A stretch of 34,159 bases of DNA from Pelagicoccus sp. GTDB taxonomy: Bacteria > Verrucomicrobiota > Verrucomicrobiia > Opitutales > Opitutaceae. The DNA lies in NCBI GenBank assembly GCA_028284635.1, contig JANQRJ010000041.1:1-34159 (forward strand), written 5' to 3'. A program made the translations under genes and the position numbers. The first letter of the stretch is position 1; each line of letters opens with the position of its first letter. This document shows positions 8,026-29,446 of the stretch, piece after piece. A model generated the notes under the pieces. The model worked only from the letters and a program-made list of their open reading frames with translations. It made no database searches and was not told the DNA's origin.

Positions 8026-8193
8026 GTAGGGCCGGCGCCGGCCGCCGTTCCGCATCATCGCTTCTCCTTATCCTTATCCTCTTCCTCATCTTCATCCTCA
8101 TCCCGGGATAAAGATGAGGATGAAGATGAGGATGAAGATGAGGAAGAGAAGAAACCATGTGCTCGCGGTCCTGCCTAACGGGTTCCGCGCTAC
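8026..8193. repeat. Composite GTAG-headed repeat with GATRAR hexanucleotide inverted core
   Basis: The left end is GTAG at 8026 followed by GGCCGGCGCCGGCCGCCG; the right end is CTAC at 8190-8193, where the minus strand reads GTAGCGCGGAACCCG. Between them, perfect 23-nt arms at 8079-8101 and 8126-8148 are built from YTYATC and GATRAR hexamers, with extra GATGAG/GATGAA units at 8113-8125. The left GTAG unit matches the one at 34105, and the right one resembles those at 4484 and 13373. The two outer units belong to different subfamilies. The rest of the 8014-8393 gap shows no gene. Confidence 0.82.
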
Positions 8194-8393
8194 GGCGCAA
8201 CCAGTCCGAATCTAGAAGCGCTCCATCGCCTAAACAGATCCTTTACGAGCGATTTGCCAAGGCGGTCGCATGAATGGCTCTCCCTTGGGGTTTAGGCTAT
8301 TTCCGATTCAAGTCTAAGTAAAAGGGACCGATTTGGAGAGGAGCTTAGTAGCCCCTAGTCTAATTTTTTTCATACGTACTCCACGAAACAACG

Positions 8394-8798
8394 ATGACCG
8401 CCGCCATACACCGCCGCCTCTCTGTCGCCATCGCATGCGCTTGCGCTTGGACGGGACTTTTGGCGGACGACGAATCGACTGAGCCAGCCGAATCGATTGG
8501 CAATCCTCAGTCGGTAGATGCCTATGCCAGGTGGGATGTTCGGCCCGTGGACAAGTCCTCGCTTCAGCCGATCGTATCGCTGCGCTTCCGCGAGGCCCAA
8601 TTCTCAGGAGCAGTCAACGTCGATATCGCCCTTGTCGAACCGGGCTTGTTCGTCGGTCGGCATCTTGAAGTAGGGGCCTTGGCTCGACTTGCGAAACCCA
8701 GCGCCACGACTTCCCCGCACGACTCACTCGAGCAGGCCTCGCCCAAGTCGCCTGCAGCTCCCGACTCTCCCGCCACCAAGGCAAAACCCTCTAGCTAG
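8394..8798 (+). CDS. Hypothetical small secreted protein
   Basis: A 134-residue protein not recognised. It starts with a basic and hydrophobic segment (HRRLSVAIACACAWTGLLAD) that looks like a signal peptide cleaved near residue 24. A short conserved-looking core follows (WDVRPVDKSSLQPIVSLRFREAQFSG..., about 47-97), and the C-terminal 35 residues are a Pro/Ala/Ser/Lys-rich low-complexity tail. Upstream is an AT-rich stretch (about 8361-8375) that could hold a promoter. It lies 81 bp before the chemoreceptor gene on the same strand and may share its transcript. No function is proposed. Confidence 0.55.
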   Translation: MTAAIHRRLSVAIACACAWTGLLADDESTEPAESIGNPQSVDAYARWDVRPVDKSSLQPIVSLRFREAQFSGAVNVDIALVEPGLFVGRHLEVGALARLAKPSATTSPHDSLEQASPKSPAAPDSPATKAKPSS

Positions 8799-8879
8799 CG
8801 AAACCCCCATCGGGTGTCGGGAACCCGCTCCTAAAGCAAACATCGATTCAACGTCTCCCAGCCATCTCTCCCACTTACC

Positions 8880-10826
8880 ATGAGCACATTATCACTCGCT
8901 AAAAAGATAGGACTCACTTTGGCGCTCTCCCTCACGTTCTTCGTGGTGCTTGCCAGCGTCTCCTACATCGCCGTCTCCAAACTCAACTCGTCGTTCGAAG
9001 AGTTCGCTCTAAACGTCGAGGAAGGCAACGCAGCCTCGGACAAGGTCTCGCTCGCCTTCTCCATGCGAGCGAACATAGCGGAGTACCTCGCCACCAGCGA
9101 TCCGCAGAAGGTAGTCGAGCACGAGAAGATGTTCGCCAGTCTCGAGAAAGGCTTTGCCGACACCTCGAGCTCTCTCCACAATCAGGAAGGCCGCCGCGCC
9201 ATGGCCGAAGCCAAGGCCCTTATGACCGGCTACAACCAGGCCTTCGAAAAGATCGTCGCCCTGAAAGGGGAGCAGGCCCGCCTCATCGACACGATCGTCA
9301 AGCCCGGAGCCAACGAGATAAAGGACAACCTAAAGGAGATGCTCGCCGCCGACCAGGGCCGGGGAGACATCGCGGGCGCTTTCGCAGCCTCTTCCGCCTT
9401 GCAGAGCATGTTCGAAGCCGACTCCGCAGTGAATCGCGTGATCGTCAAGTACAACGAGGAAGAAATGGCCGTCGCTAGCGACATGGTCGTCGAACTCGGC
9501 ACCAAGATTGACGCGATGAGGGACGACTACCAGATGAACGTCGACTTCGACGAAAGCCTCAAGGACGAGCTCAAGGAACGCGTGCTCCCTCGCAGCAAAG
9601 AAGTCCACGGAACCTTTTCGACAGGCGTGGCCGATCTCGCCTCCACGCTCAAGCAGATTACCGAGATCAACGAGCGCGACCTCATGCCAGTAGGTCCGAA
9701 GTTCGTCGCAAAGATGGAGCTCTTCCAAAAGGGCATCGCCAACACCCAGCAAGAGCTTCGCGACGACGCCAAGTCTCTTCAGGCTACCGTCAACACTTCG
9801 GTCGTCATCATTAGCCTAGTAGGCCTGATCATTGGCGTTGCCGGAGGATGGTTCGTGGTTCGCGGCATCACTCGCAGCATTGACGCTATCGTCCGTCGCC
9901 TCGAAGCCGCCGCCAGCGAGACCCTCAATGCCTCGGAACAGGTTTCCTCCAGCAGCGATGCCCTCGCCCGCGATTCCTCCGAGCAGGCAGCCTCTATCGA
10001 AGAAACCAGCTCCTCGCTCGAAGAGGTCAACGCCATGACTGCGAAAAACGCCGAAAACGCGGAGAGCGCCAAGAAGCTCGCTTCCGAAGCCCGCGTCGCC
10101 GCCGAGTCCGGCGCCGAGTCGATGAAGGACATGATCACCGCGATGCAGGACATCAAGGAGTCCAGCGACAACATCGCCAATATCATCAAGACCATCGACG
10201 AAATCGCTTTCCAGACCAATATCCTCGCTCTCAACGCCGCAGTCGAAGCCGCCCGAGCAGGCGAGTCCGGCGCCGGTTTCGCCGTAGTTGCCGACGAGGT
10301 GCGCAACCTCGCTCATCGCTCGGCCGAAGCGGCATCCATTACCGCCGAGAAGATCGAGAACTCCGTGCACAAGTCCGAGCGCGGCGTCGAGCTCAACCAG
10401 CGCGTGGCCGAAAATCTCCAGACCATCGTGGAGCACACCCAGAAGATGGACGACCTCGTCGCCCAGATCTCCGGAGCTTCCGCCGAACAGAATCGCGGCG
10501 TAGGCCTTATTCAGAGCTCCATCTCTCAGATGGACAGCGTCACTCAGCGCAATGCCGCTGCAGCCGAGGAAACGGCTTCCTCTTCACGCGTTTTGCTCGA
10601 TCAATCCAGCAGCATGCAGAACACCATCCGAGACCTCGTATCCGTGGTCAACGGCGGTCACCAAAGTACTCACCATCGCCACACTCCCGCTCCCACTGCC
10701 GCGCCTGCCCGTCCTGCCGAGCAGTCGTTCGACATGCCCGCTCCAGCCTCCCGTTCGGCTGGGCCTCAGCAGCCCGCAGCGGCTCCCGCCAGCAAAGACG
10801 GCTTTACGGACATGTGGGACAACTAG
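8880..10826 (+). CDS. Methyl-accepting chemotaxis protein, HAMP-less, with C-terminal linker tail
   Basis: A 648-residue chemoreceptor. Helix TM1 (about 9-32) and TM2 (about 306-328) bracket a helical periplasmic sensor of about 270 residues. After TM2 the protein runs almost directly into the signalling coiled coil, without a recognisable full HAMP domain. The highly conserved hairpin tip is present at about 440-481 ([20 protein letters not shown] and following GEGG-type region, here [18 protein letters not shown]), which contacts CheA and CheW. Glu/Gln-rich helices at about 365-385 and 555-565 would hold methylation sites. Beyond residue 592 a Pro/Ala-rich linker ends in FTDMWDN, which could tether an adaptation enzyme, though it does not match the classical NWETF peptide closely. 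No other chemotaxis genes are nearby. The ligand is unknown. Confidence 0.92.
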
Positions 10827-10859
10827 GATCGGCATAGAAAGTCCGCTACCAATTTCACC

Positions 10860-10889
10860 AGGCGCGCCCCGCAAGGAGCGCGCCTTTCC
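10860..10889 (+). terminator. Rho-independent-type terminator after the chemoreceptor gene
   Basis: Stem AGGCGCGC (10860-10867) pairs with GCGCGCCT (10878-10885) around a 10-nt loop, followed by a short T-rich run TTTCCTT. It lies 34 bp after the chemoreceptor stop codon and before the peptidase start at 10907. Confidence 0.7.
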
Positions 10890-10906
10890 TTCGAAAGCCA
10901 CTTCAC

Positions 10907-11995
10907 ATGAAACGAATAGCCCTGCTCGCCCTCGCTCTTAGCTGCGCCTCTCTTCCCGCTGCGGATTTCTATCCTGAACTCCAAGTGGGGACCGAGCGCT
11001 ACGAGAATGTTCACGTTCTCTCCTCCAACGCCTCCTCGCTCTCCATTCGCCATGCCCGAGGCATCGCTCAAGTCCCGCTCTCCCAGCTCAGCGAAGAGCT
11101 GCAATTGAAATACGGATACAGCTCGGAGGCGGCTCTCGCTCGCGAAGCCGAGCTCGAAAAACTGCGAGCCCAGCAAGTCCAGGAGGGGAAGGTCCGTCTG
11201 GCCAAGCGGATCGAAACCGCTGCCGTTCAAGCCAAGACCCGTTCGGCGCCCAAAGGGCTGGACGGCGCTTTCAGCTCCTTCGGCGAGGCTCCGGAGCTGC
11301 GGCGCGAGCTCGACCTGCGCCCCACCTTTCGTAGCCATGGCATCGGCGTTCGTCGGCAGAGAGGAGCCAGCTGCGCGGTCCACGCCATCGTCGCCGCCCT
11401 CGAGTTCCAGTATGCCGTCAAGAGCGGCAAGCAAGTCGACCTCTCCGAGAACCATCTCGTCGGAGCTACCTGCAAGACCCTGGGCCGCAAGCCGCGAAAC
11501 ATCGTCGGTTCCCATGACCAGAACATTCCTGTGGTGGAAGAAGGCTTCACTCTCGAGCAGGTCTTTCAGGCCATCCGAGGCTTCGGTCTCCGTCCGGAAG
11601 CGAGCAGCGATTCGGCTGAAGCCAAGGGTTCCAACGACTCCTTGCAGGACGTGAATTTCGGCAGCTTTCAGGTGCCCGGCTCTCCTGGTCCGATCGCCAT
11701 CGGCAACATCGTGCACGTGCTCAATGCCGGAATGCCTGTGGTCATCGGAATTGGCTGGCCAGCTGATTGGCGTATCCGAAATACCAACACGCTTTCCGCT
11801 CAGCCGCCGCTTTCCGGCGCAGGCCATGCCGTTACGCTTGTGGGCTATCGCTGCGAAACCGGTCGACTCGAGGATACGCGCTTCATCTTTCGAAATTCAT
11901 GGGGAACCAGTTGGGGCGCCGGCGGCTACGGTTTCGTCACCTACAAGTACCTCGCCGAAAACCTCTTCAGCAGCTACGTCGTAGAACTCCGCTAG
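10907..11995 (+). CDS. Secreted papain-like (C1 family) cysteine peptidase
   Basis: A 362-residue protein with signal peptide MKRIALLALALSCASLPAAD. Residues about 20-70 form a small beta-rich N-terminal domain, then a charged helical linker (about 75-110) leads to the peptidase domain. The C1 catalytic set is complete: oxyanion Q151 and nucleophile C156 (QRGASCAVHA), H307 (GHAVTLVGY) and N330 in RNSWGTSWGAGGYGFV. This implies an active periplasmic or extracellular endopeptidase, or one acting on peptides at the surface. There is no long propeptide of the eukaryotic inhibitor type, though the N-terminal domain could play that role. The gene stands alone between a terminator and an inverted repeat. 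Specificity cannot be read from the sequence. Confidence 0.87.
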   Translation: MKRIALLALALSCASLPAADFYPELQVGTERYENVHVLSSNASSLSIRHARGIAQVPLSQLSEELQLKYGYSSEAALAREAELEKLRAQQVQEGKVRLAKRIETAAVQAKTRSAPKGLDGAFSSFGEAPELRRELDLRPTFRSHGIGVRRQRGASCAVHAIVAALEFQYAVKSGKQVDLSENHLVGATCKTLGRKPRNIVGSHDQNIPVVEEGFTLEQVFQAIRGFGLRPEASSDSAEAKGSNDSLQDVNFGSFQVPGSPGPIAIGNIVHVLNAGMPVVIGIGWPADWRIRNTNTLSAQPPLSGAGHAVTLVGYRCETGRLEDTRFIFRNSWGTSWGAGGYGFVTYKYLAENLFSSYVVELR

Positions 11996-12000
11996 CCAAA

Positions 12001-12077
12001 ATAATCTTCATCTGCTTCTACTTCTTCTCCTCGGATTTTTTGAAGCGGATGAAGAAGTAGAAGCAGAAGAAGATTAT
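12001..12077. repeat. Inverted repeat of TTC/ATC triplets between convergent genes
   Basis: Arms at 12001-12027 and 12051-12077 are 27 nt long with one mismatch. They read ATAATCTTCATCTGCTTCTA and onward on the left. The loop contains a run of six T residues, so the hairpin could terminate both converging transcripts. The stop codon of the minus-strand glycosyltransferase (TAA, complement of 12074-12076) lies inside the right arm. A related element with the same CCCATAATCTTC end is at 17345-17442. Confidence 0.85.
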
Positions 12078-13210
12078 GGGGTGGCGAGCATTCGCTCGAA
12101 TTCCCGGTCGTAGCGCTCGATCATCTCTCGCCAGTCGTAGCGGGCCGCCTTCTCTCTCAGCGGACTGGGTTGTTTCCACCCCTCGTTGGCGATGAGTTCG
12201 GCCAGACGCTCGACAGCCTCATCTTCGCTCTCGTAGTAGGAAATTGGATATTCGTTGACGTCGAAATGATTTGGATACGCCAACCGCTTGGGCAATAGGG
12301 GGTGGCAGCCGCAGTAGACCGCCTCTACCACGCTGCCGCCGAAGAAATCCTGCTCCGAGGTGACGGGCAGGATGTCCGCTCTCCAGAGCCAGGCTGCGTA
12401 ATCCTCGAAACTGTCCGCCGTTCCGTATGCCGCCACGCGTTCGCCCCAGCGCTCTCTCGCCTTGGCGAAGTAGGGCGGCTCTGCCGAGGGCTGTTGCCCG
12501 AGCAGGGCCACTTGAAATTCCAGTCCCCGCTCCAGTAGAGCGTCCAGCAGTCGGCAAAAGGCGACTGGCCCCTTGTCGTACTCCCAACGATGGTTCCAGA
12601 GCAGCAGCGGCACGTCGCCCGCTTCTTCCGTTTGTTGCCAATACGGGTCGAACGCCGTCAGATCCAGTCCGAGCGGCAGGGTTGCGCTCTTAGCTTCGAT
12701 CGCAGCTACGGTGCCCTTGTTTTCGAAATCCGGATAGGCGTCTAGAAACTCCGGAAGGGCAGCCAGAAAGGTTTCGCGGTGGTAGTTGGAATTGAAATAC
12801 ACGCGATCCGCTGCCAGACTGCTCGTGTAGTTGATGAAGACGTAGTGCCGGTCTCGCTGCCGCTTCGCATCCATATCGCCCGGCGACCAAGGATAGCAGA
12901 GCTGGTTTTCGTGAAAGTAGATCGCCACCGGCGTTCTCGCGTAGCGGCGCCTGATCAAGCTGGTGAATACGGCTACGTCCAGCATGTCGGTGGTCAAAAT
13001 GAGATCGTACTCAGAGTTTTGTGACAAAAGTCGCTCTGCTAGAGTGATCGCCGCGCCGTGCATACGCCATTTCCAGTGGCGTCCTGGCAGGGTCAGGAGT
13101 TCGATGCGATGCCGCGACCGCTCGGCGAGCTCTTCCGCCCAACGCCGATGCGAACCGCTGAAAAACGGCTCGACCAGACAGATGTGAAGCGATGCGGAGC
13201 TCTCAGTCAT
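12074..13210 (-). CDS. tRNA-queuosine alpha-mannosyltransferase-like glycosyltransferase (DUF3524/GTDC1 type)
   Basis: A 378-residue GT-B fold glycosyltransferase of the family that contains vertebrate GTDC1/QTMAN, which adds mannose to queuosine in tRNA-Asp. The hallmarks are visible: N-terminal LVEPFFSGSHRRWAEEL (about 11-27), LTLPGRHWKWRMHGAAI (38-54), FHENQLCYPW (about 97-106), FINYTSS, FNSNYHRETFL, LWNHRWEYDKGP (about 189-200), LLGQ, and PVTSEQDFFGGSVVEAVYCGCHPLLP in the donor-binding half. A longer in-frame extension reaches 13354 but is repeat-derived poly-Ser; the start is ATG at 13210. The product is probably cytoplasmic. Its stop codon lies in the intergenic inverted repeat. The bacterial substrate is inferred from family only. 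Confidence 0.85.
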   Translation of the reverse strand: MTESSASLHICLVEPFFSGSHRRWAEELAERSRHRIELLTLPGRHWKWRMHGAAITLAERLLSQNSEYDLILTTDMLDVAVFTSLIRRRYARTPVAIYFHENQLCYPWSPGDMDAKRQRDRHYVFINYTSSLAADRVYFNSNYHRETFLAALPEFLDAYPDFENKGTVAAIEAKSATLPLGLDLTAFDPYWQQTEEAGDVPLLLWNHRWEYDKGPVAFCRLLDALLERGLEFQVALLGQQPSAEPPYFAKARERWGERVAAYGTADSFEDYAAWLWRADILPVTSEQDFFGGSVVEAVYCGCHPLLPKRLAYPNHFDVNEYPISYYESEDEAVERLAELIANEGWKQPSPLREKAARYDWREMIERYDREFERMLATP

Positions 13211-13227
13211 TCGCTGGTTCGAAACCC

Positions 13228-13373
13228 GTAGCGCGGATCCCGCAGGGCGGGACCGCGACCGCAACAATCCCGCATCGTCTTCCTCATCCTCATCTTTATC
13301 ATGGGATAAGGATGAAGAGGACGATGAGGAGGAAGCTGACGGAAGCGGTCCCACTCTGCGGGATCCGCGCTAC
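13228..13373. repeat. Composite GTAG-headed inverted repeat with GATRAR core
   Basis: Outer arms at 13228-13256 and 13345-13373 (29 nt, two mismatches) begin GTAGCGCGGATCCCGCAG on each strand. The two mismatches fall in the arm middle (GGGC against GAGT). Inside are YTYATC-type units (about 13275-13300) and GATRAR-type units (about 13305-13330), forming an imperfect inner hairpin. It separates two co-directional minus-strand genes, upstream of the glycosyltransferase start, so it is not simply an end-of-operon terminator for converging genes. Confidence 0.83.
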
Positions 13374-13381
13374 GGATGCCA

Positions 13382-13612
13382 CTAGTTGTGACAACCGCAT
13401 CCGCCTCCACCACAACAGCTTTGAGACGTGGCAGCTGGCGCGCTGCTGCCGCCTACCGAAAAACCATAGCCTCCCGATATGACGCGCCGCACTGGCTTAC
13501 CGGTCTCAGGATGGGTGGTCAACGCGTCGTCCTTCATGCTCTGCTGGATTTCGAATCGTTCCGGCTTCTCGTCGGGAGATGCGGGAATGGTCTCGTAAAC
13601 GTAGGTAGCCAT
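13382..13612 (-). CDS. FmdB-like small protein lacking zinc-ribbon cysteines, with Cys-rich tail
   Basis: A 76-residue protein matching the FmdB/CxxC-CxxC-SSSS family in its frame: MATYVYE at the start, FEIQQSMKDDALT (20-32) and PVRRVISGGYGF (40-51). In the usual family two CxxC pairs form a zinc ribbon before and after the QSM motif. Here those positions read TIPASPDEKP and THPETGKP, with no cysteine. Instead C66, C67, C72 and C74 cluster in a glycine-rich tail (CCGGGGCGCHN). The ATG at 13612 is chosen because the family starts M-x-T-Y. Function is unknown even for standard members. The gene sits between tyrS and the glycosyltransferase. Confidence 0.72.
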   Translation of the reverse strand: MATYVYETIPASPDEKPERFEIQQSMKDDALTTHPETGKPVRRVISGGYGFSVGGSSAPAATSQSCCGGGGCGCHN

Positions 13613-13670
13613 GAGTCGAAGGTTCGGAAAGGCCGTCGAAGGAGTCAAGCAGGGTAGACCTCCCCCTCGA

Positions 13671-13710
13671 CCGACACTTTATTTTCCAACGTTGGAAAAT
13701 AAAGTGTCGG
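13671..13710. terminator. Perfect 40-bp palindrome, likely terminator after tyrS
   Basis: CCGACACTTTATTTTCCAAC (13671-13690) is followed at once by its exact reverse complement (13691-13710), giving 20-bp arms with no spacer. It begins 10 bp after the tyrS stop on the minus strand. There is no T-run next to it, so it may be a protein-binding or repeat site as well as a terminator. Confidence 0.75.
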
Positions 13711-13719
13711 GCAGGGGTG

Positions 13720-15006
13720 CTAGGTCACGACGAGCGCGGCGTAGTTTTTCTTTCCTCTCCGCAGCAGGATGTACTTGCCGAAGTGGATGTCGGCTTGGTT
13801 GAGGGTTCGTCCAACCTCTTGTACGCGCTCGTTGTTCACGTTTACGCCGCCGCCTTGGATGTCCTTCTTGGCCTGGCCGCGGGAGGCGCTCAGTCCAGCT
13901 GCGACGAGAGCGTCTAGCAGGGGATAGCCTTCTTCGGAAGATAGGGCCTCGGCAGGAGCATTGGCGTTTGGAATCTCGCTGGCGACTTCGCGCAAGGCGT
14001 TTTCGGTAATGCCTTCGAGACCGCCGCCGAAGAGGATCTTCGAGGCGTTGATGGCGTCCTCGGTGGCCTGTTCGCCGTGGACGAGGGTAGTCATTGCGCG
14101 AGCAAGCGCCCGATGGGCCTCGCGGGCTCCGGGGTTTTCCATATGAGCGGTTTCGAGCGCCGAGACCTCCTCTTGGCTCAGGAAGGTGAAGAGCTTGAGG
14201 TAGCGGACCACGTCGCGGTCGTCGATGTTGATGAAGTATTGGTAAAACCGATACACGCTGGTGCGAGCGGGGTCGAGCCAGACGGCGCCTTTCTCGCTTT
14301 TGCCGAACTTCGAGCCGTCGCTGTTTGTAATGAGGGGCAGGGTGAGGCCGTAGACCGTCTGGCCGGCCTTCTTGCGGGTGAGTTCCGTGCCGACGGTGAT
14401 GTTGCCCCACTGGTCGGAGCCGCCGATCTGCAGTTCGCAGTCCATCGTCTGGTTGAGATGGTAGAAGTCGTAGCCTTGCAGCAGCATGTAGGAGAACTCG
14501 GTGAAGCTGATGCCGGCTTCCTTGTCGCTCATACGGGCCTTGACGCTCTCCTTGGCCATCATGGAATTGACGGTGATGTGCTTGCCCACGTCGCGCAGGA
14601 AGTCGAGAAAGCTGATGGACGTGGTCCAGGACGCGTTGTCGACGAGTTTGGCTGGATTGGGCAGCTCTTCGGAGAAGTCTAGCAGGCGGGCGAGCTGGAC
14701 TTTTACCTGGGCGATATTGTGGTTGAGGTCTTCCTTGCTCAGAAGCTTGCGCTCGGACTTCTTGCCGGAGGGATCGCCGATGGATCCAGTTGCGCCTCCC
14801 GCTAGGGTGATTGGCTTGTGTCCGTAGTTCTGGAAGCGGCGCAGAGCGAGCAAGGGCACAAGGTTGCCCACGTGGAGGCTGTCGGCCGTCGGGTCGAAAC
14901 CGCCGTAGACGGTGATGGGGCCTTCTTCGAGGCGCTTGGCCAGCTCTTCCGGAGCGGTACAGTCGCTGATCAGACCCCGCCATTTCAGTTCTTCCAGAAT
15001 AGTCAT
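13720..15006 (-). CDS. tyrS: Tyrosyl-tRNA synthetase
   Basis: A 428-residue class I aminoacyl-tRNA synthetase that charges tRNA-Tyr in the cytoplasm. The active-site pocket is seen in YGGFDPTADSLHVGN (34-48), where HVGN is the HIGH motif. ITLAGGATGSIGDPSGK (66-82), QIGGSDQWGN (193-202) and the KMSKS equivalent KFGKS (233-237) follow. An S4 RNA-binding domain covers about 365-425 (LDALVAAGLSASRGQAKKDI...). Length is normal for the TyrS1 type. The start MTILEELKWRG is typical of the family. It faces galE divergently across 230 bp that contain a GTAG-headed inverted repeat. Confidence 0.97.
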   Translation of the reverse strand: MTILEELKWRGLISDCTAPEELAKRLEEGPITVYGGFDPTADSLHVGNLVPLLALRRFQNYGHKPITLAGGATGSIGDPSGKKSERKLLSKEDLNHNIAQVKVQLARLLDFSEELPNPAKLVDNASWTTSISFLDFLRDVGKHITVNSMMAKESVKARMSDKEAGISFTEFSYMLLQGYDFYHLNQTMDCELQIGGSDQWGNITVGTELTRKKAGQTVYGLTLPLITNSDGSKFGKSEKGAVWLDPARTSVYRFYQYFINIDDRDVVRYLKLFTFLSQEEVSALETAHMENPGAREAHRALARAMTTLVHGEQATEDAINASKILFGGGLEGITENALREVASEIPNANAPAEALSSEEGYPLLDALVAAGLSASRGQAKKDIQGGGVNVNNERVQEVGRTLNQADIHFGKYILLRRGKKNYAALVVT

Positions 15007-15102
15007 AGAGCGATGGGTTCTGAGAGCAAAGCGACTCGCTGTCCATTTTGAAATCCGGCGTTGTGTGGCAGAGGGCCAGATTCGAGGTGAGGATCCCGTG
15101 AG

Positions 15103-15160
15103 GTAGCCGAACTCGATAGAGTTTGGTCTTCCGGATCCAGACTCTATCGAGTTCGGCTAC
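15103..15160. repeat. GTAG-headed inverted repeat in the tyrS-galE divergent region
   Basis: Perfect 20-nt arms at 15103-15122 and 15141-15160 read GTAGCCGAACTCGATAGAGT. Pairing continues four more positions inward if one G-U is allowed. The match stops exactly outside the GTAG on both sides. The element lies between two genes transcribed away from each other, where a transcription terminator would not be expected. Confidence 0.85.
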
Positions 15161-15236
15161 GAATGTGTTTCAGGAAATGCGCTTGGCGCGTTGGCCTGGG
15201 CCGTCTAGATCGACGACTCCTTTTCGAAGAGACGTT

Positions 15237-16208: not shown

Positions 16209-16211
16209 GCC

Positions 16212-16330
16212 GTAGCGGCCGGCTTGTTAGGCCGCCCTCCCACTCCTCATCCTCATCTTTATCCTCATCCCAAAACCGGACGAGAAAGGATGGGATTAAG
16301 ATGAGGATAAAGATGAGGATGAGGAGTGGG
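16212..16330. repeat. GTAG-headed element with perfect 30-nt GATRAR arms entering a gene
   Basis: GTAG at 16212-16215 heads a short hairpin (GCGGCC...GGCCGC). Then perfect 30-nt arms at 16239-16268 and 16301-16330 follow, composed of YTYATC and GATRAR units ending in CCCACTCC/GGAGTGGG. Further pairing ATCCCA/TGGGAT lies inside. The right arm is within the coding end of the formylglycine-generating enzyme gene. No CTAC partner is found on the right. Confidence 0.87.
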
Positions 16331-17303
16331 ATTCCACATCGGCGACGCAGCGGAAGCCTAGGTGGCCGCTTGAGGAGTCGGGCGTATTCGAGGTGCGGGC
16401 TCCCACTCGGTAGCGATTGCAGTAGCTGAGGTGGCAGAGATAGGAGCCGCCTTTCATGACCTTGTTGGCTCCGGTTTCGGGGCCAGTCGGGTTTTCGCGC
16501 CTGCCGCTTGCCCGCCAGGTCGGGCTGAACCAATCGCTGCACCATTCCCAGGTGTTGCCCGAGAGATTGAACAAGCCGTATCCGTTGGCTTTGAAACTTC
16601 GGGCGGGGGCTAGGCCCTTGTATCCGTCTTCGCCGGTGTCTTCCTTCGGAAACGCGCCTTGCCAAATATTGCACATGTGCTTGCCGCCTGGGGTGAGTTC
16701 GTCGCCCCAGGGGTACTTCTTTTGTTCCAGGCCGCCGCGTGCCGCGTACTCCCATTCCGCTTCGGTAGGAAGGCGCTTGCCCGCCCAGCGGCAATAGGCC
16801 TGGGCGTCGGTCCAGGATACGTGAACGACCGGGTTGCCCATGCGTTTCTTGATGTTCGATCCTGGGCCTTCCGGCTTGCGCCAGGTGGCGCCTTCAATCC
16901 CGTACCACCACTCCAGGCCCTGTACGCGACGGTCCTCGTTTTTCTTGCGTAGGCTGCGACTGAGCTGGCTGTGGTGCACGTAGCTCCAGCCGAATCCTTC
17001 TGCCTCCGTCTTGTATCCAGTTTCGGATACAAAGTTGGAAAATTGCTCGTTAGTTACGGCAGTGATATCGATGTAGAAAGGTCGTAAGGTCACCCGGCAA
17101 ACAGGTCCTTCGCCGTCGGCGGGCCAGGCCTCGTTGTCTTCGTTGCCCATGAGAAAGGTTTCGCCGGGCAGGAGTTTCATGCCTTCGGTCGAAACGGGCT
17201 TGGTGGAACGCTCCGTGGTTCCGCAGCATGTTCCCGCGTTCGGAACGAGTTCGGAGCTGGTGGCTGGGCGTGAGGGGCTGCAACAGGATTTTCCTTCGGA
17301 CAT
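16296..17303 (-). CDS. Formylglycine-generating enzyme (SUMF1/FGE-sulfatase family)
   Basis: A 335-residue protein with the FGE-sulfatase fold. It oxidises a cysteine in Cys-type sulfatases to C-alpha-formylglycine, the catalytic residue of those enzymes. The catalytic cysteine pair is present as C290 and C295 in GGSYLCHLSYCNRYR, almost identical to the human enzyme, so this is a true FGE and not one of the many domain relatives lacking it. WTDAQAYCRWAGKRLPTEAEWEYAARGG (164-191) and NLSGNTWEWCSDW (246-258) are family hallmarks. The N-terminus carries CCSPSR, common in bacterial FGEs. The last ten residues (SSSSSLSSS and flanks) are encoded by the intergenic repeat. Copper likely acts as cofactor, as in the family. 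No sulfatase gene is in the window. Confidence 0.9.
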   Translation of the reverse strand: MSEGKSCCSPSRPATSSELVPNAGTCCGTTERSTKPVSTEGMKLLPGETFLMGNEDNEAWPADGEGPVCRVTLRPFYIDITAVTNEQFSNFVSETGYKTEAEGFGWSYVHHSQLSRSLRKKNEDRRVQGLEWWYGIEGATWRKPEGPGSNIKKRMGNPVVHVSWTDAQAYCRWAGKRLPTEAEWEYAARGGLEQKKYPWGDELTPGGKHMCNIWQGAFPKEDTGEDGYKGLAPARSFKANGYGLFNLSGNTWEWCSDWFSPTWRASGRRENPTGPETGANKVMKGGSYLCHLSYCNRYRVGARTSNTPDSSSGHLGFRCVADVESHSSSSSLSSS

Positions 17304-17344
17304 AGGCGAGGCTAAGTGTCTTCAGCGGCTTGCTCGGGATCAAG

Positions 17345-17442
17345 GCTCATCCTCATCTTCATCTTCTTCTTCATCCTCTTCTCGATCCTTATCCAGCTTT
17401 TTGAAGTAGATGAAGAAGTAGAAGAAGATGAAGATTATGGGG
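17345..17442. repeat. Imperfect inverted repeat of TTC/ATC triplets in a divergent promoter region
   Basis: The left side (17345-17396) is CTCATC/TTCATC-rich and the right side (17404-17442) is GAAGAAG/GATGAAG-rich; a 14-nt perfect match pairs 17357-17370 with 17420-17433. The right end AGATTATGGGG and the central CTTTTTGAAG resemble the 12001-12077 element, suggesting one subtype. It lies between the divergent FGE and gspE genes. Confidence 0.75.
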
Positions 17443-21269: not shown

Positions 21270-21318
21270 TCCTTTTTTCGGCGCTTCAAGCCACGGGCCG
21301 TCGTCCAGGTCCTCTTTC

Positions 21319-21360
21319 CAGTCCAGTGAAAAGGTCAACCTTGACCTTTTCACTGGACTG
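21319..21360. terminator. Near-perfect palindrome after gspF, probable terminator
   Basis: Arms of 20 nt at 21319-21338 and 21341-21360 (CAGTCCAGTGAAAAGGTCAA and its reverse complement) are separated by only CC. Weaker pairing continues outward (TCTTT against AGGGG, with G-U pairs). It lies 49 bp after the gspF stop codon. No T-run follows. Confidence 0.75.
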
Positions 21361-21419
21361 AAGGGGTGAGCGGACCCTGCCTTTAAACGGAATTCCATGA
21401 CTTTGAATCGCGCCCTCCG

Positions 21420-21613: not shown

Positions 21614-21671
21614 AGTTAGTCCCAGCTAAAGCATTGTCGTTTTGCATGGCGTGGGTAAAGTACCCCTCGAA

Positions 21672-22706: not shown

Positions 22707-22759
22707 ACCATCGATTTCGACAGGCCACGACAGGCTAAGGCTCCTGACGCCAAGAGCCT

Positions 22760-23149: not shown

Positions 23150-23168
23150 TCTCGCTGCCCGTCGGAAA

Positions 23169-23609: not shown

Positions 23610-23620
23610 TGCGGACGTTT

Positions 23621-24553
23621 CTATAGATTGGACGGGACGGCTATGTCATCCACGGTGCCTCTGCCGCGCTGGCTGCCCGAGCTGCCGCCGATGTCCTTGG
23701 GCATCGCTTGGCCGTCGCCTTCGTTCTTGACGTTTTCGTTTGAGGCGGAGGTTTGTATGCGGCCTTCGGCGTTCGCGTTGGACGACTCGCCTCCGGCCTC
23801 GCCGGAATCGCCTCCAGAGGAAGATTGGCTGCTGGCTTGAGCGAGTTCGCCGTTGGGATCGATCTGGGCGGAAGCGTCGCCGATCTGCTGTTCTGGCGGC
23901 GGCGGCGGCATCTCGCCGTAGATTGGCGACTGGCCCTGCTGCCCGGCTTGGCCTTGTTGCCCGGACTGGGCTCCTTGAGCGGACTGCCCGCTTTGTTGTC
24001 CACCTTGTTGACCGGCTTGCTGTCCGCTTTGCTGCTGGGATTGAGGGCTGAGTCCGTCTTGCTGGCCGGGGGACTGGCCCGATTGGGACTGCCCGGATTG
24101 GGATTGGCCTTGTTGAGACGACTGCTGGGATGAAGATGACGAAGAGGATGAGGATTGGGATTGGGGGAAGGGGCTATTTTGGCTCTGACTTTGCTGACCT
24201 CCGCCTCCGCCCATTGGCGGCAGGCCGATCGAGCTGCTGCCTCCACCGCCCATGCCTCCACCGCTCATGGGTGGGAAGCCGATGCCTCCGGAACCGATTT
24301 GGCCGAGTCCGGGCAAATTGATTTCGAGCGGGGGGAGATTCGATTCGTTGACGACGGTGATGCTGCCGCCGAGGGGGCTGTTGACGAGCACGCCGGGCGA
24401 AATGCTGCCTCCTTGGGAGCCGGCTCCGTTTTTGGCTCCATCGAAGATGGCGGGATCGGGATCGAATTGGGCGCTGGCGGTCGCGGCAATGGCCAGAGCG
24501 GCTGCGGTGGCTAGGCTGCGCCTGGAGTTTCTTGCGATTGCTCGGTTTTCCAT
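23621..24553 (-). CDS. Gln/Ser/Gly-rich low-complexity secreted protein
   Basis: A 310-residue protein not recognised. The N-terminal region (SLATAAALAIAATASAQ, ending near residue 28) is a signal peptide. A short ordered-looking segment follows (SPGVLVNSPLGGSITVVNESNLPPLEINLPGLGQIG, about 52-88). The middle is glycine-rich (MSGGGMGGGGSSS), then a long Gln/Ser tract of about 100 residues contains repeats such as GQSQSGQSQSG and GQQGQAGQQGQ. The C-terminal section is Ser/Asn/Glu-rich and ends in VDDIAVPSNL. A poly-Ser run within the tract is encoded by GATGAG/GATGAA-like hexamers on the plus strand (24128-24157), the same units as the intergenic repeats. It lies between the TPR and small secreted genes with gaps of 23 and 11 bp. 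Such tracts often form flexible or adhesive surface regions. Confidence 0.68.
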   Translation of the reverse strand: MENRAIARNSRRSLATAAALAIAATASAQFDPDPAIFDGAKNGAGSQGGSISPGVLVNSPLGGSITVVNESNLPPLEINLPGLGQIGSGGIGFPPMSGGGMGGGGSSSIGLPPMGGGGGQQSQSQNSPFPQSQSSSSSSSSSQQSSQQGQSQSGQSQSGQSPGQQDGLSPQSQQQSGQQAGQQGGQQSGQSAQGAQSGQQGQAGQQGQSPIYGEMPPPPPEQQIGDASAQIDPNGELAQASSQSSSGGDSGEAGGESSNANAEGRIQTSASNENVKNEGDGQAMPKDIGGSSGSQRGRGTVDDIAVPSNL

Positions 24554-24576
24554 GGCGGGTGGGGTTGGACGGGGTT

Positions 24577-26316
24577 TCAGTAGTTGTTTCTGGTTTCGCA
24601 GATCACGGTGAGGGGCGTCTGGGCCATGCCTCCTCTTATCTGTAGACCGAAGCGGACGTCTTGGTAGCCTTTTCTACGGCCGATTACGAAGTACTTGCCG
24701 GGTAGAAGGTTGACGGTGCGCTCTTCGAATCTTTCGGGTTTGAGGGTGCTGGGTCCTTGTATGCTGACCCAGGTGGTGCCGTCCGAGGTGATTTGCACGG
24801 GGACGGGCTGGCTTTGCAGCTGGAGAAATTTGCGCAGGCGTTCGGCTTCATCGTCGAGCTGGACGTAGGTGGGCTTGGATTGCATGGCTTGATCGAAAGT
24901 GCGGATGGCGAGCTGGAACTCGGCGGACTGGGCTTCGCCTTTCGCGACCTCGAGCAGCTTCTCGTAGCGCAGGATGCTGCGGATCATGCGTCCGGTGCGC
25001 AGCAGGCCATCCTTGGCTTCCTGGAGATCTGGCTCCATGTTCACCAGCTCTTGATAGAGGTCTCGAGCTTGGGCCCACTCGTAGGCTCGCTCGTGATCGT
25101 AGGCGCGGGTGATGCGGGTGACGATGTCGTTCTGACGCTTGGCGGCGCGGGCCTTCTCGATGGCGGTTTCTATGTCGCTGCGGCTGGGGAAGATCTCAAG
25201 GGCGGCTCGATAGTTTTCGATGGCGTCTTCGAATCTGAGGCTTTCCTCGGCGGACTTGGCGGCGGCGAAGAAGTTGGTGAAGTCGCGTTCCTGAATCTTG
25301 CGACGCACGCGAGCTACGCCGGACTGGGCCTTTGCGGAGCCGGAGTCGATGGAGAAGGCTTCCTGAAAGGATGTGAGGGCGGATTCGAGGTCGCCGCCGT
25401 CTTCGCTGGTCTCGCCCGCCTGTAGGGCGAGAAAGGCGCGGTCGGCGACGCGGGCTCGTTCGAGAAGCCTGACGGCTTCTTCGTTGGCGGGATCGATTTC
25501 CAGCACGCGAGTGAAGGCTTCGATGGCTTCGGAGCTTTTGCCTTGGCTGATGAAACGCTGGCCGAGCGCGGCATTGGATCGAATGAAGTTGTTGATCGAG
25601 GTCTCGACGGCGTCGAGCTTGCTCTCGGCTTCCTCGAGTCGCTGCAGGGCTGGGGTGAAGCTGCCGGTATCGAGGAAGTTCTTGCCTTCGGAGGCGGCGA
25701 AGAAGGCGGTCTGGAAGTCTTCGGGGTTGAGGTGCTTGCCGCGTTCCAGGGCGCTGGATTTGACCAGGAAGTTGTTGTAGAGGCTTTGGGCGTTCTGCTT
25801 GTTTTCGACTTCGCTGGTGAATTCCTCGATGAGGCCGTCGACTCGGTTGTACTGCGCGATAGCCCTGGCGTAGGAGGAGCGTCGCATGTAGTCGTCTGCG
25901 TCGATTTTTTCCTTCTGGATGTTGATGAGCATCTGGCGGAGGACTTCGTTGCCGGTTATGGGCATCTGGGTAGCCGCTTCGAGCTTGCGCTCGATGTTGT
26001 CTCGTACGCCTTGAGCCCGCGAAACGCTCTCGAAGGCGCGGTTGAGACTGCTGCCTTCCAACTCCTCGTTGCTGCTGCTTTGGCCGATTTCGTCGGGGGC
26101 CTGGTAGACGAACAGAAAGTAGCCGCTGCCGAGTATGACGGCTACCAGCAAGGCCCCGAGGGCTCCACCGAGGTAGGCTTTGGCGGTGGAGGTCTTGCCT
26201 GGCTGGCCTTCTTCGTCCTCAGGATTCCAGTGTATGACTTTGTGCTTGCGGGCGGGTTGTTTTGGATCGCGCAGATCGGCCATTTCTTGTTCCTGATTGG
26301 TGGGATCGCTGCTCAT
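24577..26316 (-). CDS. Membrane-anchored TPR protein with C-terminal PEGA-like domain
   Basis: A 579-residue protein with a short charged cytoplasmic N-terminus, one transmembrane helix (about 46-70), and a long soluble region outside the inner membrane. Helical repeats resembling TPRs occur near 247-285, 300-330, 348-380, 402-435 and 455-490 (for example GKSSEAIEAFTRVLEIDPANEEAV). The C-terminal part (about 505-575) contains VSIQGPSTLKPERFEERTVN and LLPGKYFVIGRRKGYQDV, which looks like a PEGA-type surface-binding domain. ATG at 26316 gives the longest form; ATG at 26283 (MADLRDPKQ) has AGGA upstream at better spacing and may be the real start. It begins an operon with two secreted proteins. 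A scaffold role for an envelope assembly is suggested but not shown. Confidence 0.75.
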   Translation of the reverse strand: MSSDPTNQEQEMADLRDPKQPARKHKVIHWNPEDEEGQPGKTSTAKAYLGGALGALLVAVILGSGYFLFVYQAPDEIGQSSSNEELEGSSLNRAFESVSRAQGVRDNIERKLEAATQMPITGNEVLRQMLINIQKEKIDADDYMRRSSYARAIAQYNRVDGLIEEFTSEVENKQNAQSLYNNFLVKSSALERGKHLNPEDFQTAFFAASEGKNFLDTGSFTPALQRLEEAESKLDAVETSINNFIRSNAALGQRFISQGKSSEAIEAFTRVLEIDPANEEAVRLLERARVADRAFLALQAGETSEDGGDLESALTSFQEAFSIDSGSAKAQSGVARVRRKIQERDFTNFFAAAKSAEESLRFEDAIENYRAALEIFPSRSDIETAIEKARAAKRQNDIVTRITRAYDHERAYEWAQARDLYQELVNMEPDLQEAKDGLLRTGRMIRSILRYEKLLEVAKGEAQSAEFQLAIRTFDQAMQSKPTYVQLDDEAERLRKFLQLQSQPVPVQITSDGTTWVSIQGPSTLKPERFEERTVNLLPGKYFVIGRRKGYQDVRFGLQIRGGMAQTPLTVICETRNNY

Positions 26317-26623
26317 GTCTTGGCGTTGTGGGTCAAATGGAATTTTGGCAGGCTTAAAGGCTACGCTATAAATAGCATCTTGAAAAGCGTTGTTCGGGTA
26401 AATTACGAAAAGCTCACGCTTTCGGATTCAAAGGGAAGACAGCTCCTCGGACCCCGGATTGGAAATCGGCCCTTCGGGTCCCACCAGGAGAACCTGCGTC
26501 TGAAACGAAGAGCGCCTGCGGATAATCATTTGCATAATTGCGGCTGGCGGCTAGCTTGAATGAATCCGTTCGCGGTCTCGGATCGTACGCTTTGAAAGAA
26601 ACTTGGCACCTCGTTTTCCGCTC
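26317..26623. other. Divergent intergenic region between TPR operon and M48 protease gene
   Basis: About 307 bases with no convincing gene. It is more AT-rich near 26340-26420 and must hold promoters for both directions, but no clear -35/-10 pair was fixed. An imperfect stem GGACCC...GGGTCC lies around 26449-26481. No GTAG-headed or GATRAR repeat was seen. Confidence 0.5.
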
Positions 26624-27445
26624 ATGAAAAATCTAAGCACAGTCTCGGCGGTCCTTCTGCTGGTCGCCCTCCTTTCTTCCGCATGCACCACTGTCCCGGT
26701 GACCGGTCGCAAGCAGTTCAATACGCAATCGGACGTAAAGGTGGCGGAGATGAGCATCGCAGCCTTCGAGCAAATGAAGTCGCAGATCCCGATTTCCCAG
26801 GATGTCTACTACAACGAGATGCTGCGCAACGTTGGGGAACGCATTTCGCAGCAGGTCTTTGCGGATATGCCGCTGGCCGAATGGGAATTCGTGGTCTTCG
26901 ATCAGCAGGAGGTGAACGCCTTTGCTATGCCGGGTGGCAAGATTGGGGTTTTTCTTGGGCTTTTTCAGGTCGCGCAGACTGAGGACGAGCTTGCTTCGGT
27001 CGTGGCCCATGAGATTGCTCATGTCACGGCCCGCCACACGCACGAACGGCTCTCGCAGATGCATGCTGCTTCGGGCGTCGGCACCATTCTCGGAATCGGG
27101 GCGGCTATCGCGGGACCGGCTGTCATTGGAAACAGCGTATCGGTCAATGCTGGTTCCACGATCATGGGTCTTTATAACATTGGCGCCCAGGGCCAACTGA
27201 ACACATGGGATCAGGCCAAGGAGGCCGAGGCCGATCGCATCGGCATTATGTACATGGCGAGGGCGGGCTACGATCCGAATGCCGCCATCCGGGTGATGGA
27301 ACGCATGGTCGAAATGGAGATGTCGCTTCCGCAAAACAACTACAATTCCACCCACCCCTCCTCGGTGGAGCGTTTGAATGCGCTTCATGGCTACCTTGAC
27401 GAGGCGATGGTGGAGTACGAGAAAGCCAAGGAATTCTATTTCTGA
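26624..27445 (+). CDS. M48-family metallopeptidase lipoprotein (BepA/LoiP-like)
   Basis: A 273-residue exported lipoprotein: signal segment with lipobox LLSSAC, lipid-modified C21. The zinc site is HEIAH (129-133) with E200 as third ligand in KEAEADRIG, the M48 pattern. The preceding AFAMPGGKIGVFLGLF (99-114) is also typical. Downstream segments (GYDPNAAIRVMERM, STHPSSVERLNAL) match the family without a C-terminal TPR domain, so it is shorter than E. coli BepA and nearer LoiP in length. Such proteases survey outer-membrane proteins in the periplasm. ATG at 26624 begins the signal peptide; a TTG at 26603 is less likely. It is a single gene followed by a large inverted repeat. Confidence 0.9.
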   Translation: MKNLSTVSAVLLLVALLSSACTTVPVTGRKQFNTQSDVKVAEMSIAAFEQMKSQIPISQDVYYNEMLRNVGERISQQVFADMPLAEWEFVVFDQQEVNAFAMPGGKIGVFLGLFQVAQTEDELASVVAHEIAHVTARHTHERLSQMHAASGVGTILGIGAAIAGPAVIGNSVSVNAGSTIMGLYNIGAQGQLNTWDQAKEAEADRIGIMYMARAGYDPNAAIRVMERMVEMEMSLPQNNYNSTHPSSVERLNALHGYLDEAMVEYEKAKEFYF

Positions 27446-27453
27446 TCGATATT

Positions 27454-27532
27454 CTTCTGGGAACGCGGGCGGCTCGCCCGCATTTGGCCCGATCCTGTGC
27501 CGCTGCGGGCGAGCCGCCCGCGTTCCCAGAAG
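27454..27532. repeat. Perfect 29-nt-arm inverted repeat after the M48 protease gene
   Basis: Arms at 27454-27482 and 27504-27532 are exact reverse complements (starting CTTCTGGGAACGCGGGCGGC). The 21-nt loop is TTTGGCCCGATCCTGTGCCG-like. The stem is very stable and starts 8 bp after the protease stop codon. It could terminate that gene. No adjacent T-run is present and the gene after it is read in the same direction. Confidence 0.85.
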
Positions 27533-27666
27533 TTGGAGTCTTTGGAAATAAGTGACGATTCGGTGAATTGATCCGCCTGTTGCGAACCGGTTCTTGACTC
27601 GGCTATCGGTCCGCAATTGAAGAAATCGATTCACTCTTGACCCCCTGCAGCGTAATCGAACTCGCC

Positions 27667-28461
27667 ATGGCCCTTCGTTCGACAGACAGACGATCCCGTC
27701 TTGAACAATTCATCCCGCCGTCTCCAACTTCCGCATACAAAGTGAGGATGGCCATGGACGAGAGCGACGTGGCTAAGGCTCAGCGGCTGCGCTACGATGT
27801 TTTCAACCTGGAGATGGGAGAAGGACTTAGCGAGTCCGAGGCGACCGGCAAGGATGTGGATGCCTTCGATGTGGTCTGCGATCATCTGCTGGTAGAGCAC
27901 GTCAATGACGGCCGCATTATTGGCACGTACCGATTGCAGACCGGAACGACTGCCGCAGCCAATATCGGCTACTATAGCGAACAGGAGTTCGATTTCTCTA
28001 TCTTCGAGCCGATTCGTTCGGAGATCGTGGAGCTAGGTCGTGCCTGTATTGCGAAGGAGCACCGTAACATGGTGGTATTGGGTTTGCTTTGGAAAGGAAT
28101 CGCCCAGTACTCCAAGCTTTACGAAGCCCGCTATTTGATCGGCTGCAGCTCCTTGACTTCGACTGATCCGGCCGAAGGCTTGGCGGCCTCGCGTAAGCTG
28201 TCCCGCTATCAGGCGGCCTCCGAGTTCCTCACGCGCCCGACTCCCGCCTACGAGTGCGCCGTGCCTGTCGAGGAAATGTCTCGAGTGGATGAAGCTTTCG
28301 AGCGGGTGCAGATTCCCCGTCTGATGAGGGCTTACTTGACTCTGGGCGCTCGCATCTGCGGCGAACCTGCCTTGGATCTCGATTTCAAGACGATCGACTT
28401 CCTCACCCTGATCGATCTGCGCAGTCTGGCTCCGCAGGCCTTGATCAAGTTTCTGGGGTAG
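27667..28461 (+). CDS. olsB: Ornithine-acyl[ACP] N-acyltransferase (OlsB-like, GNAT fold)
   Basis: A 264-residue acyltransferase of the Acetyltransf_5 (OlsB) group. It would attach a 3-hydroxyacyl chain from acyl carrier protein to the alpha-amino group of ornithine, giving lyso-ornithine lipid. Family features include AQRLRYDVFNLEMGEG (38-53), DHLLVEH (72-78), IIGTYRLQ (84-91), SEIVELGRACIAKEHR (118-133) and the C-terminal GEPALDLDFKTIDFLTLIDL (232-251). The ATG at 27667 is used; a TTG at 27637 would add ten unsupported residues. The gene is followed 86 bp downstream by an acyltransferase that fits OlsA, the partner enzyme. Some OlsB relatives are annotated as haemolysin-like; the neighbour argues for lipid synthesis. 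Confidence 0.84.
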   Translation: MALRSTDRRSRLEQFIPPSPTSAYKVRMAMDESDVAKAQRLRYDVFNLEMGEGLSESEATGKDVDAFDVVCDHLLVEHVNDGRIIGTYRLQTGTTAAANIGYYSEQEFDFSIFEPIRSEIVELGRACIAKEHRNMVVLGLLWKGIAQYSKLYEARYLIGCSSLTSTDPAEGLAASRKLSRYQAASEFLTRPTPAYECAVPVEEMSRVDEAFERVQIPRLMRAYLTLGARICGEPALDLDFKTIDFLTLIDLRSLAPQALIKFLG

Positions 28462-28477
28462 GTCGTCGAGTTGGGTG

Positions 28478-28526
28478 GTTTGCCCGCAGATGACGCGGAT
28501 TTTCTCAGATCTGCGGGCAAACTTTT
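28478..28526 (+). terminator. Hairpin with T-run between olsB and olsA
   Basis: Arms GTTTGCCCGCAGAT (28478-28491) and ATCTGCGGGCAAAC (28509-28522) are exact complements with a 17-nt loop, followed by TTTT (28523-28526). It resembles a rho-independent terminator or attenuator 16 bp after the olsB stop. Confidence 0.65.
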
Positions 28527-28547
28527 CCACCGGACTTGTAAAGCGGC

Positions 28548-29324
28548 GTGGCGCCTTCTTTATCGGTGCGAGTGACTGCTTTGATCGCAACATTTCGCCA
28601 GTTGTGGCGTTTGCTTTTCGTCATTGGCGTATTCGTTCGCTCGGGGCTGGACTACCGTCTGCGGGGAGGGAAAGGGTGGTCCAAGTCGCGGCGAGCCGAG
28701 TGGCTGGGCAAGTGGAGCTCTGCGATGCTCAGAGGAGTCGGCTATGAGCTGAGGGTGGTGGGTTCGCCGCCGACTGGCGGCTTCGTCGCTCCAAACCATC
28801 TGGGCTATATCGATATTCTGGTTCTGGCTTCGGTGTCGCCTCAGGCCTTTCTTTCGAAGAGCGATGTGGCTGACTGGCCAGTGATCGGCTTGTACACGAA
28901 GATGGCGGGCACGCTGTATATCGATCGGGGGCGACGCAGCGATGTCGCCACAAAGGAGGAGGAGTTTGCCAAGGTGATCGAGGCTGGATTGAACATGACG
29001 TTTTTCCTGGAAGGCACGTCTACGGATGGGAATACGATCCTGCCCTTTCGTTCATCGCTTCTGGCTCCGGTGGTGAAGAACGGCTGGCTAATCACCCCGG
29101 CCTATCTGCAATACGAGTGCGCGCAGGGCGATCCGAGGATGGACGTTTGTTGGTGGGGCGATATGGGTTTCGGCAGTCACCTGCTCCGCATGCTGCGGGT
29201 GAAAAAGGTCTACGCGACCGTCGTATTCGGAAGTTCGCGACATCCCGGAGACGACCGCAAGCGGCTTGCGGTGGAACTGCAAGAGGATGTGGAGCGGCTG
29301 AGAAAATGTAGCGCGGAGCTTTAG
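28548..29324 (+). CDS. olsA: 1-acyl-glycerol-3-phosphate acyltransferase family (OlsA/PlsC-like)
   Basis: A 258-residue membrane-associated acyltransferase. An N-terminal hydrophobic helix (about 11-31) precedes the PlsC domain with the HX4D motif in NHLGYID (83-89; H84, D89) and motif III FLEGTSTDG (153-161). A glycine-rich MAGTLYIDRG (119-128) is also typical. Placed just after olsB, it most likely adds the second acyl chain to lyso-ornithine lipid (OlsA), though general phosphatidic acid synthesis (PlsC) is possible. The start is uncertain: only GTG codons are available (28548, 28566, 28572). The terminal residues Ser-Ala-Glu-Leu and the TAG stop (29322-29324) lie inside the arm of the 29308-29446 inverted repeat. 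Confidence 0.8.
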   Translation: MAPSLSVRVTALIATFRQLWRLLFVIGVFVRSGLDYRLRGGKGWSKSRRAEWLGKWSSAMLRGVGYELRVVGSPPTGGFVAPNHLGYIDILVLASVSPQAFLSKSDVADWPVIGLYTKMAGTLYIDRGRRSDVATKEEEFAKVIEAGLNMTFFLEGTSTDGNTILPFRSSLLAPVVKNGWLITPAYLQYECAQGDPRMDVCWWGDMGFGSHLLRMLRVKKVYATVVFGSSRHPGDDRKRLAVELQEDVERLRKCSAEL

Positions 29325-29446
29325 CCCGCGTTCGCGATTCGCCCTCATCATCCCCCTTCCTCATCCTCATCCCAGGATAAAGATGAGGATGAAGAAGAGG
29401 ATGAGGATGAGAAATGTAACGGACGCGGGCTAAAGCTCCGCGCTAC
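29308..29446. repeat. Composite GTAG-headed inverted repeat overlapping two convergent gene ends
   Basis: Perfect 24-nt outer arms at 29308-29331 and 29423-29446 read GTAGCGCGGAGCTTTAGCCC, continuing GCGT. Inside, CTCATC-type units (about 29344-29372) face GATRAR-type units (about 29380-29411). Pairing stops exactly outside the GTAG on both sides. The olsA stop codon lies in the left arm and the DUF4340 stop codon in the right arm, so both proteins end in the same four residues. Confidence 0.9.

Follow-up and report, generated by a model that had tools for sequence, protein, structure and literature searches.

The stretch of DNA analysed here (the window) is the whole of contig C74, 34,159 bases long, from a 104-contig, 4.57 Mb genome of Pelagicoccus sp., and it carries short palindromes that begin with GTAG. 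We conclude with high confidence that these units are repetitive extragenic palindromes (REPs), and that their inverted pairs are non-autonomous mobile units, similar to REP doublets forming hairpins (REPINs) or bacterial interspersed mosaic elements (BIMEs), of several REP-associated tyrosine transposase (RAYT) systems. Four pairings of a RAYT gene with its own REP head (GTAGCGCGGA, GTAGCCGAACTC, GTAGGGACCG and GTAGCCGCGTTC) were seen, all in one verrucomicrobial genome that probably belongs to the Opitutales. The hundreds of short GTAG hairpins in this genome are probably mobile, and the RAYT genes are most likely their spreaders. An earlier reading of the window from its letters alone (the original prediction) had already placed it in the Verrucomicrobia, in agreement with the two closest named relatives for a window protein, which are verrucomicrobial metagenome-assembled genomes (MAGs; 55% and 51% identity), one of them labelled Opitutaceae; four weaker matches of the same protein (30-35%, proteobacterial MAGs) were not used.

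Genome-wide, the head GTAGCGCGGA occurs in 422 copies compared to 6 for the reversed word, GTAGCGCGGAKC in 399 copies compared to 0, and GTAGCCGAACTC in 155 copies compared to 3; a chance origin of the heads is ruled out by these controls. Bare GTAG counts in the window (229 versus 111 expected) were dropped as evidence for hairpins because the tetranucleotide is common there anyway. Finer counts were made with exact 12-mer heads, which overlook decayed copies, in a non-random sample of 432 kb consisting of the window and of contig stretches known to hold heads or RAYTs. This sample contained 103 exact heads (45 of type A1, 20 of family B, 17 of C, 12 of D and 9 of subtype A2), with reversed controls of 3 for family C and 0 for family D. 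Only 28 of the 103 lay wholly within open reading frames (ORFs), which were called by length and codon GC without a gene finder and cover 84% of the sample; a second caller gave 25 of 103. Family E is a subset of C1; it is excluded from the 28 of 103, and its units were consequently counted twice in one sample tally. The palindromes named by the original prediction are thus real: short, preceded by GTAG, present in many dispersed copies far above controls, and mainly intergenic.

Using the protein encoded on contig C65 as a query, we found five RAYT-like genes in the genome, named here after their contigs (C65, C41, C88, C4 and C9); the Pfam model Y1_Tnp detected two loci. The residues H122-x-H124 and Y184 were kept in all six RAYTs aligned, the five above plus one from the same-genus genome G004. 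The C65 protein combines this HUH motif and single catalytic tyrosine with a match to the NCBIfam profile NF047646 (REP_Tyr_transpos; 88.7 bits, cut-off 80) in a scan of C65 and C88, and its sole match in the PDB at E 0.01 was the E. coli TnpA-REP structure 4er8 (E 0.0003). Four of the five genes, all except C88, are flanked directly on both sides by GTAG palindromes of a dispersed family, the arrangement of a REPtron, and each has a separate head:
C65: GTAGCGCGGAGCTTCAGCC on both sides
C41: GTAGCCGAACTCGACAGAG on both sides
C4: GTAGGGACCGATCGCC on both sides
C9: GTAGCCGCGTTCGTGAG on both sides

The heads seen at RAYT genes are also dispersed in the genome or sample (families A, B, C and D), and in several cases the flanking palindromes overlap the RAYT reading frame. 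The link to RAYTs, which the original prediction had drawn from proteobacterial REPs, is therefore borne out, with two of its three named heads (GTAGCGCGGA and GTAGCCGAACTC) standing at RAYT genes; the third, GTAGGGCCGGCGC, has no RAYT of exactly its own sequence and is closest, by eye, to the head of the C4 gene. In the RAYT-like frames at loci L154, L155 and L158 the stop codon is the TAG of a GTAG, and at L154 and L158 this GTAG is the start of the flanking REP.

A natural variant of this association occurs in G004, whose RAYT is about 55-57% identical to that of the window's genome. A similar gene (judged by eye) ends ahead of the RAYT in either genome; we take it to encode a protein like the succinyl-CoA ligase alpha subunit. 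On both sides of the G004 RAYT stand GTAGCGCGGTGC heads, with one base changed, and G004 has 86 copies of this form (reversed control 4), the window's genome 2; conversely, GTAGCGCGGAKC is present in 19 copies in G004 and in 399 in the window's genome. A one-base head change at the RAYT locus thus accompanies a change in the dispersed copies.

By the mechanism that we consider most likely, each RAYT, as an HUH (Y1) enzyme, would recognize its own GTAG-plus-hairpin on single-stranded DNA, cut next to GTAG, and copy or move REP pairs into intergenic sites; cleavage, transposition and present-day enzyme activity would be expected from membership of the RAYT family. Several observations weigh against this account. 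The C88 gene has a family-A head upstream only, and its protein scores 73.8 on NF047646, below the cut-off. Neither subtype A2 (GTAGCGCGGATCCC) nor GTAGGGCCGGCGC has a RAYT of exactly its own sequence among the five loci, and the pairs at the C65 RAYT locus lack the triplet spacer described below. Lastly, genome G001 contains 46 GTAGCGCGGAKC heads, yet its RAYT match is weak (E 9e-7) and the weakly matching gene adjoins other GTAGGG heads, so the number of heads and the presence of a C65-type RAYT are not strictly coupled.

The GTAG elements of the window are as follows, with the strand where one was assigned and with the z score of single-stranded DNA folding where a region was folded:
171-198, minus strand: solitary family-A REP (GTAGCGCGGAGCTTCAGCC...), with an exact A1 head at 187-198
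4452-4484, minus strand: single REP of subtype A2 (GTAGCGCGGATCCCGC...), exact A2 head at 4473-4484
8026-8193: composite with unlike heads, GTAGGGCCGGCGCC on the left and GTAGCGCGGAACCCG on the right, around a triplet hairpin at 8061-8154; z -6.5
13228-13373: subtype-A2 REP pair whose spacer is a triplet hairpin; z -10.3
15103-15160: outward REP pair of family B (GTAGCCGAACTCGATAGAGTTTGG), same head as at the C41 RAYT gene; z -10.2
16212-16331: untyped GTAG hairpin (GTAGCGGCCGGC) followed by a triplet hairpin at 16238-16331; z -9.7 for 16212-16350
29308-29446: family-A REP pair, both arms AGCTTTAGCC, whose spacer is a triplet hairpin; z -12.5
34105-34159, plus strand: GTAGGGCCGGCGCTTGCC... unit that probably opens a pair truncated at the contig end (34159) and is similar to the first half of the whole pair at L081 11799-11874

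Three of the four inverted pairs in the original prediction (13228, 15103 and 29308) were upheld by sequence and arm complementarity. The fourth, at 8026/8193, is a GTAG-headed composite, but not an inverted pair of like heads, and its pairing lies mainly within the inner triplet hairpin. The proposed solo units at 198, 4484 and 34105 carry heads of repeated families, the one at 16212 is a GTAG hairpin of no typed family, and the one at 27 (GTAGGCTCCGCGG) matches none of the families typed here and is not supported. A scan of the window against Rfam gave no match at gathering scores.

Inverted pairs able to form one hairpin were common in the sample: neighbouring exact heads no more than 220 nt apart comprised 27 outward, 5 inward and 4 tandem pairs. 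The arrangement with GTAG at both outer ends, described in the original prediction, therefore predominates in the sample, but not in the GTAGCCGAACTC family (family B), in which close pairs are mostly inward (23, versus 5 outward, among 98 listed heads of the 155 in the window's genome). The original prediction also had pairing stop exactly outside the tetranucleotide at 15103-15160 and 29308-29446. This is true of 15103-15160, where arms of 24 nt (96% complementary) end just outside GTAG/CTAC; at 29308-29446, the base adjoining GTAG is unpaired and two more A-T pairs follow (arms 29305-29334/29420-29449), and the arms of 13228-13373 extend 2 nt beyond GTAG (CCGTAG/CTACGG). Across the 27 outward pairs, complementarity is 1.0 at GTAG by construction, falls to 0.67, 0.59, 0.56 and 0.37 at positions -1 to -4, and then reaches background. 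The border of the pairs is thus near GTAG, not always exactly there.

An alternative explanation takes the palindromes for hairpins with a fixed function at gene ends (as bidirectional terminators, stabilizers of mRNA 3' ends or protein-binding sites), held by selection, the RAYTs being incidental. Such a role would fit the folding, since each of the five regions folded was more stable than its dinucleotide-shuffled versions (z -6.5 to -12.5), and the placement of the heads: by the second caller on naive ORFs, a typed head occurred in 16 of 60 convergent gaps, 30 of 203 tandem gaps and 1 of 45 divergent gaps. Tolerated insertions, however, would avoid promoter regions too. The one gap compared, and only among distant lineages, lies downstream of the ORF at 28548-29324 (presumably PlsC-like), whose last codons and stop come from element 29308-29446. 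In L034, an Opitutaceae MAG with the same next gene, this gap has no GTAG pair and holds a hairpin that looks by eye like a terminator, as the fixed-function explanation would have it; the gap of L033, another verrucomicrobial MAG with a matching next gene, contains a different GTAG pair (GTAGCGGGCGATC...). A 106-aa ORF intervenes in L091, and in the sequence fetched from the other six genomes of the genus we did not find the next gene. In this comparison of orthologous gaps, which the original prediction had called for in related strains, presence of the element therefore varies between distant lineages. With the element absent or replaced at this gap, four families each adjoining its own RAYT gene, the matched head change in G004 and the high copy number in one species, we regard fixed hairpins as a very improbable explanation, and continue to read the GTAG units as REPs of RAYT systems.

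In a subfamily of the REP pairs the spacer is conserved and forms a hairpin of its own, built of degenerate triplets (CATCCTCATC...GATGAGGATG). The inner hairpin of this core consists of CATCTTCATCCTCATC, a loop CCAGGATAAA and then GATGAGGATGAAG; the triplet hairpin that follows the 16212 unit in the window has 32 nt with 100% complementarity, and element 29308-29446 is 89% identical to the full-length copy that served as query. The exact core pattern gave 124 matches per strand in the window's genome, overlapping within elements. It was absent from 37 relatives and, in a sample of the phylum, from the other 386 genomes (the two sets overlap), in a search for the exact pattern that would miss altered cores. 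Among 17 exact-head family-A pairs in the 432 kb sample, 5 (139-163 nt) have the triplet run, with 93-117 nt between 23-nt REPs; the remaining 12 (61-139 nt) do not, so some long pairs are coreless. One REP-pair subfamily of the first system (GTAGCGCGGA) probably took up the triplet hairpin as its spacer and has spread with it in the species. At L079 2774-2877 and at window 132-151, a word CCCTGAGCTTGTCGAAGGGC has the look of an insertion into a family-A pair, within whose spacer it lies.

Alternatively, the triplet hairpin could be an independent element, entering REP pairs or drawing REPs to its ends. The genome does contain triplet hairpins of a second family, which lack GTAG (AATCTTCATCTGCTTCTACTTCTTC - loop - GAAGAAGTAGAAGCAGATGAAGATT); this family has 20 exact-pattern loci here and none in the 37 relatives. 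Its members include:
window 12001-12077: GTAG-less triplet hairpin (AATCTTCATCTGCTTCTACTTCTTC...), exact pattern
L199-L217: GTAG-less triplet hairpins of the same kind
A triplet hairpin at window 17349-17435, not an exact match, resembles a hybrid of both hairpin kinds, and at L166 a hairpin like those of the second family adjoins a family-A head. Furthermore, the core of the REP pairs is found with REP arms of differing subtypes. Other observations tie the core to its pairs. We selected 26 sites by the core alone on contigs C3-C31; at the threshold used, a typed REP was present on both sides of 20, on one side of 4 and on neither side of 2, whereas none of the 20 second-family hairpins had a typed GTAG head within 110 nt. 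Moreover, the limits of the core, judged by eye, are similar in most copies, between the CCGC and GCGG of the pair. Since a typed REP adjoins 24 of 26 cores on one side or both, we rate independent mobility of the core lower and consider it unlikely, and treat the core below as the spacer of a REP pair.

The two arms around the core tend to be of the same subtype. The 20 two-sided elements comprise 8 T/T, 6 C/C, 2 A2/A2 and 4 unlike pairs, so that 16 of 20 match, compared to 8.05 expected by shuffling (p 0.00045). A BLAST-type search with one element, which scored 40 of 312 candidates, was excluded from this test because it favours arms like those of the query. Matching would result if one arm were copied onto the other within the hairpin, by template switching or mismatch repair. 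Rare variants common to both arms (GGTGC at C26:63192 and GGGACAGCG at C11:52210) speak for such copying, as do the cores themselves, which are not clearly closer between elements of the same arm type (24.5 within, 25.5 between, p 0.23, n 16). However, whole-unit spread of a few subtypes would also yield matching arms; the nearest core shares the arm type in 12 of 16 cases, although the compared stretches include a few arm bases; and an earlier test on strict heads gave p 0.0075 with the core (n 19) and 0.053 without it (n 23). Either the arms are copied within the hairpin or a few subtypes have spread whole; we put forward arm copying, within the RAYT account, tentatively, as less likely than not.

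In the second family, an element's own arms differ less than arms paired between copies (0.3 versus 0.99 mismatches over 9 nt, p 5e-5, n 20) and are perfect in 14 of 20 copies, and complementarity declines about 12 nt outside the selected arms. The loops differ, yet are slightly more alike than shuffled ones (5.49 versus 4.75). It is conceivable, if doubtful, that a process particular to this species makes and maintains (A/C/T)TC / GA(A/G/T) triplet hairpins and feeds both kinds of repeat, with arm copying and triplet slippage keeping the arms alike while the loops drift.

Other repeats were observed beside these. The first 200 nt or so of contigs C4, C8, C12 and C21 contain subtype A2 heads, and the assembly therefore probably broke at repeats; a longer repeat (TTAAGTTGACGCC...GCGCAGAGCGGGACCGCG) adjoins A2-type sequence at window 81-125 and also at L074, L075 and L080. 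A further dispersed palindrome family without GTAG consists of CTGGGAACGCGGGCGGCTCGCCCGCA and its inverse, and there are near-perfect palindromes with loops of 0-2 nt, four of them centred on AACGTT, in which arm sequence is common to some only:
CTGGGAACGCGGGCGGCTCGCCCGCA family: window 27454-27532; L069 7097-7169; L076 4974-5050; L077 8527-8606; L087 17392-17465
near-perfect palindromes: window 13664-13717 and 21319-21360; L069 17987-18038; L070 3101-3150; L079 9161-9208; L074 8822-8883
long perfect hairpins, with arms of degenerate GAATAGTGA / TTCACTATTC repeats: L068 12052-12132; L069 6477-6561

Together, the results document four RAYT/REP pairings within one verrucomicrobial genome. The natural one-base head change, present at the RAYT locus and genome-wide, provides a clean test case for how RAYTs read REPs. 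The triplet-cored pairs indicate that a long, conserved and structured spacer is compatible with a high copy number in one species. That their arms match around a common core is relevant to how the two ends of a REP pair stay alike.

The original prediction had set the units of this verrucomicrobial genome beside the REPs of Proteobacteria; elements of this kind are, however, already known from Verrucomicrobia. GTAG-tagged REPs and REPtrons have been described in Opitutus terrae, among others, by Di Nocera et al. 2013 (PMC3733652), and since such REPs and RAYTs are published for Verrucomicrobia, the system is of a known kind. As described in that paper for O. terrae, we found GTAG palindromes of several families in one verrucomicrobial genome, dimers, a preference for intergenic sites and repeat-specific RAYT loci; the comparison is by description. 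The C65 protein is a weak sequence match to E. coli TnpA-REP (PDB 4ER8; biochemistry in PMC8266576), with the HUH and Y residues kept. What is new is the conserved triplet-hairpin spacer, found in the window's genome alone among those searched; a search of the open-access literature did not find such a spacer described. The spacers reported in PMC3733652 are 20-100 bp long, some conserved or structured, and the passages of that paper on which we draw mention no triplet-repeat spacer; REPIN spacers have elsewhere been described as short and highly diverse (PMC8049555). The REPINs of Pseudomonas fluorescens SBW25 (Bertels and Rainey 2011; PMC3116915) likewise consist of two inverted REPs and a spacer as the likely mobile unit, each group being tied to a RAYT, and compensatory changes between their two sides were already reported there. 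In SBW25, however, the spacer is less conserved than the REPs (PMC3116915), whereas in one subfamily here it is long, conserved and forms a hairpin of its own.

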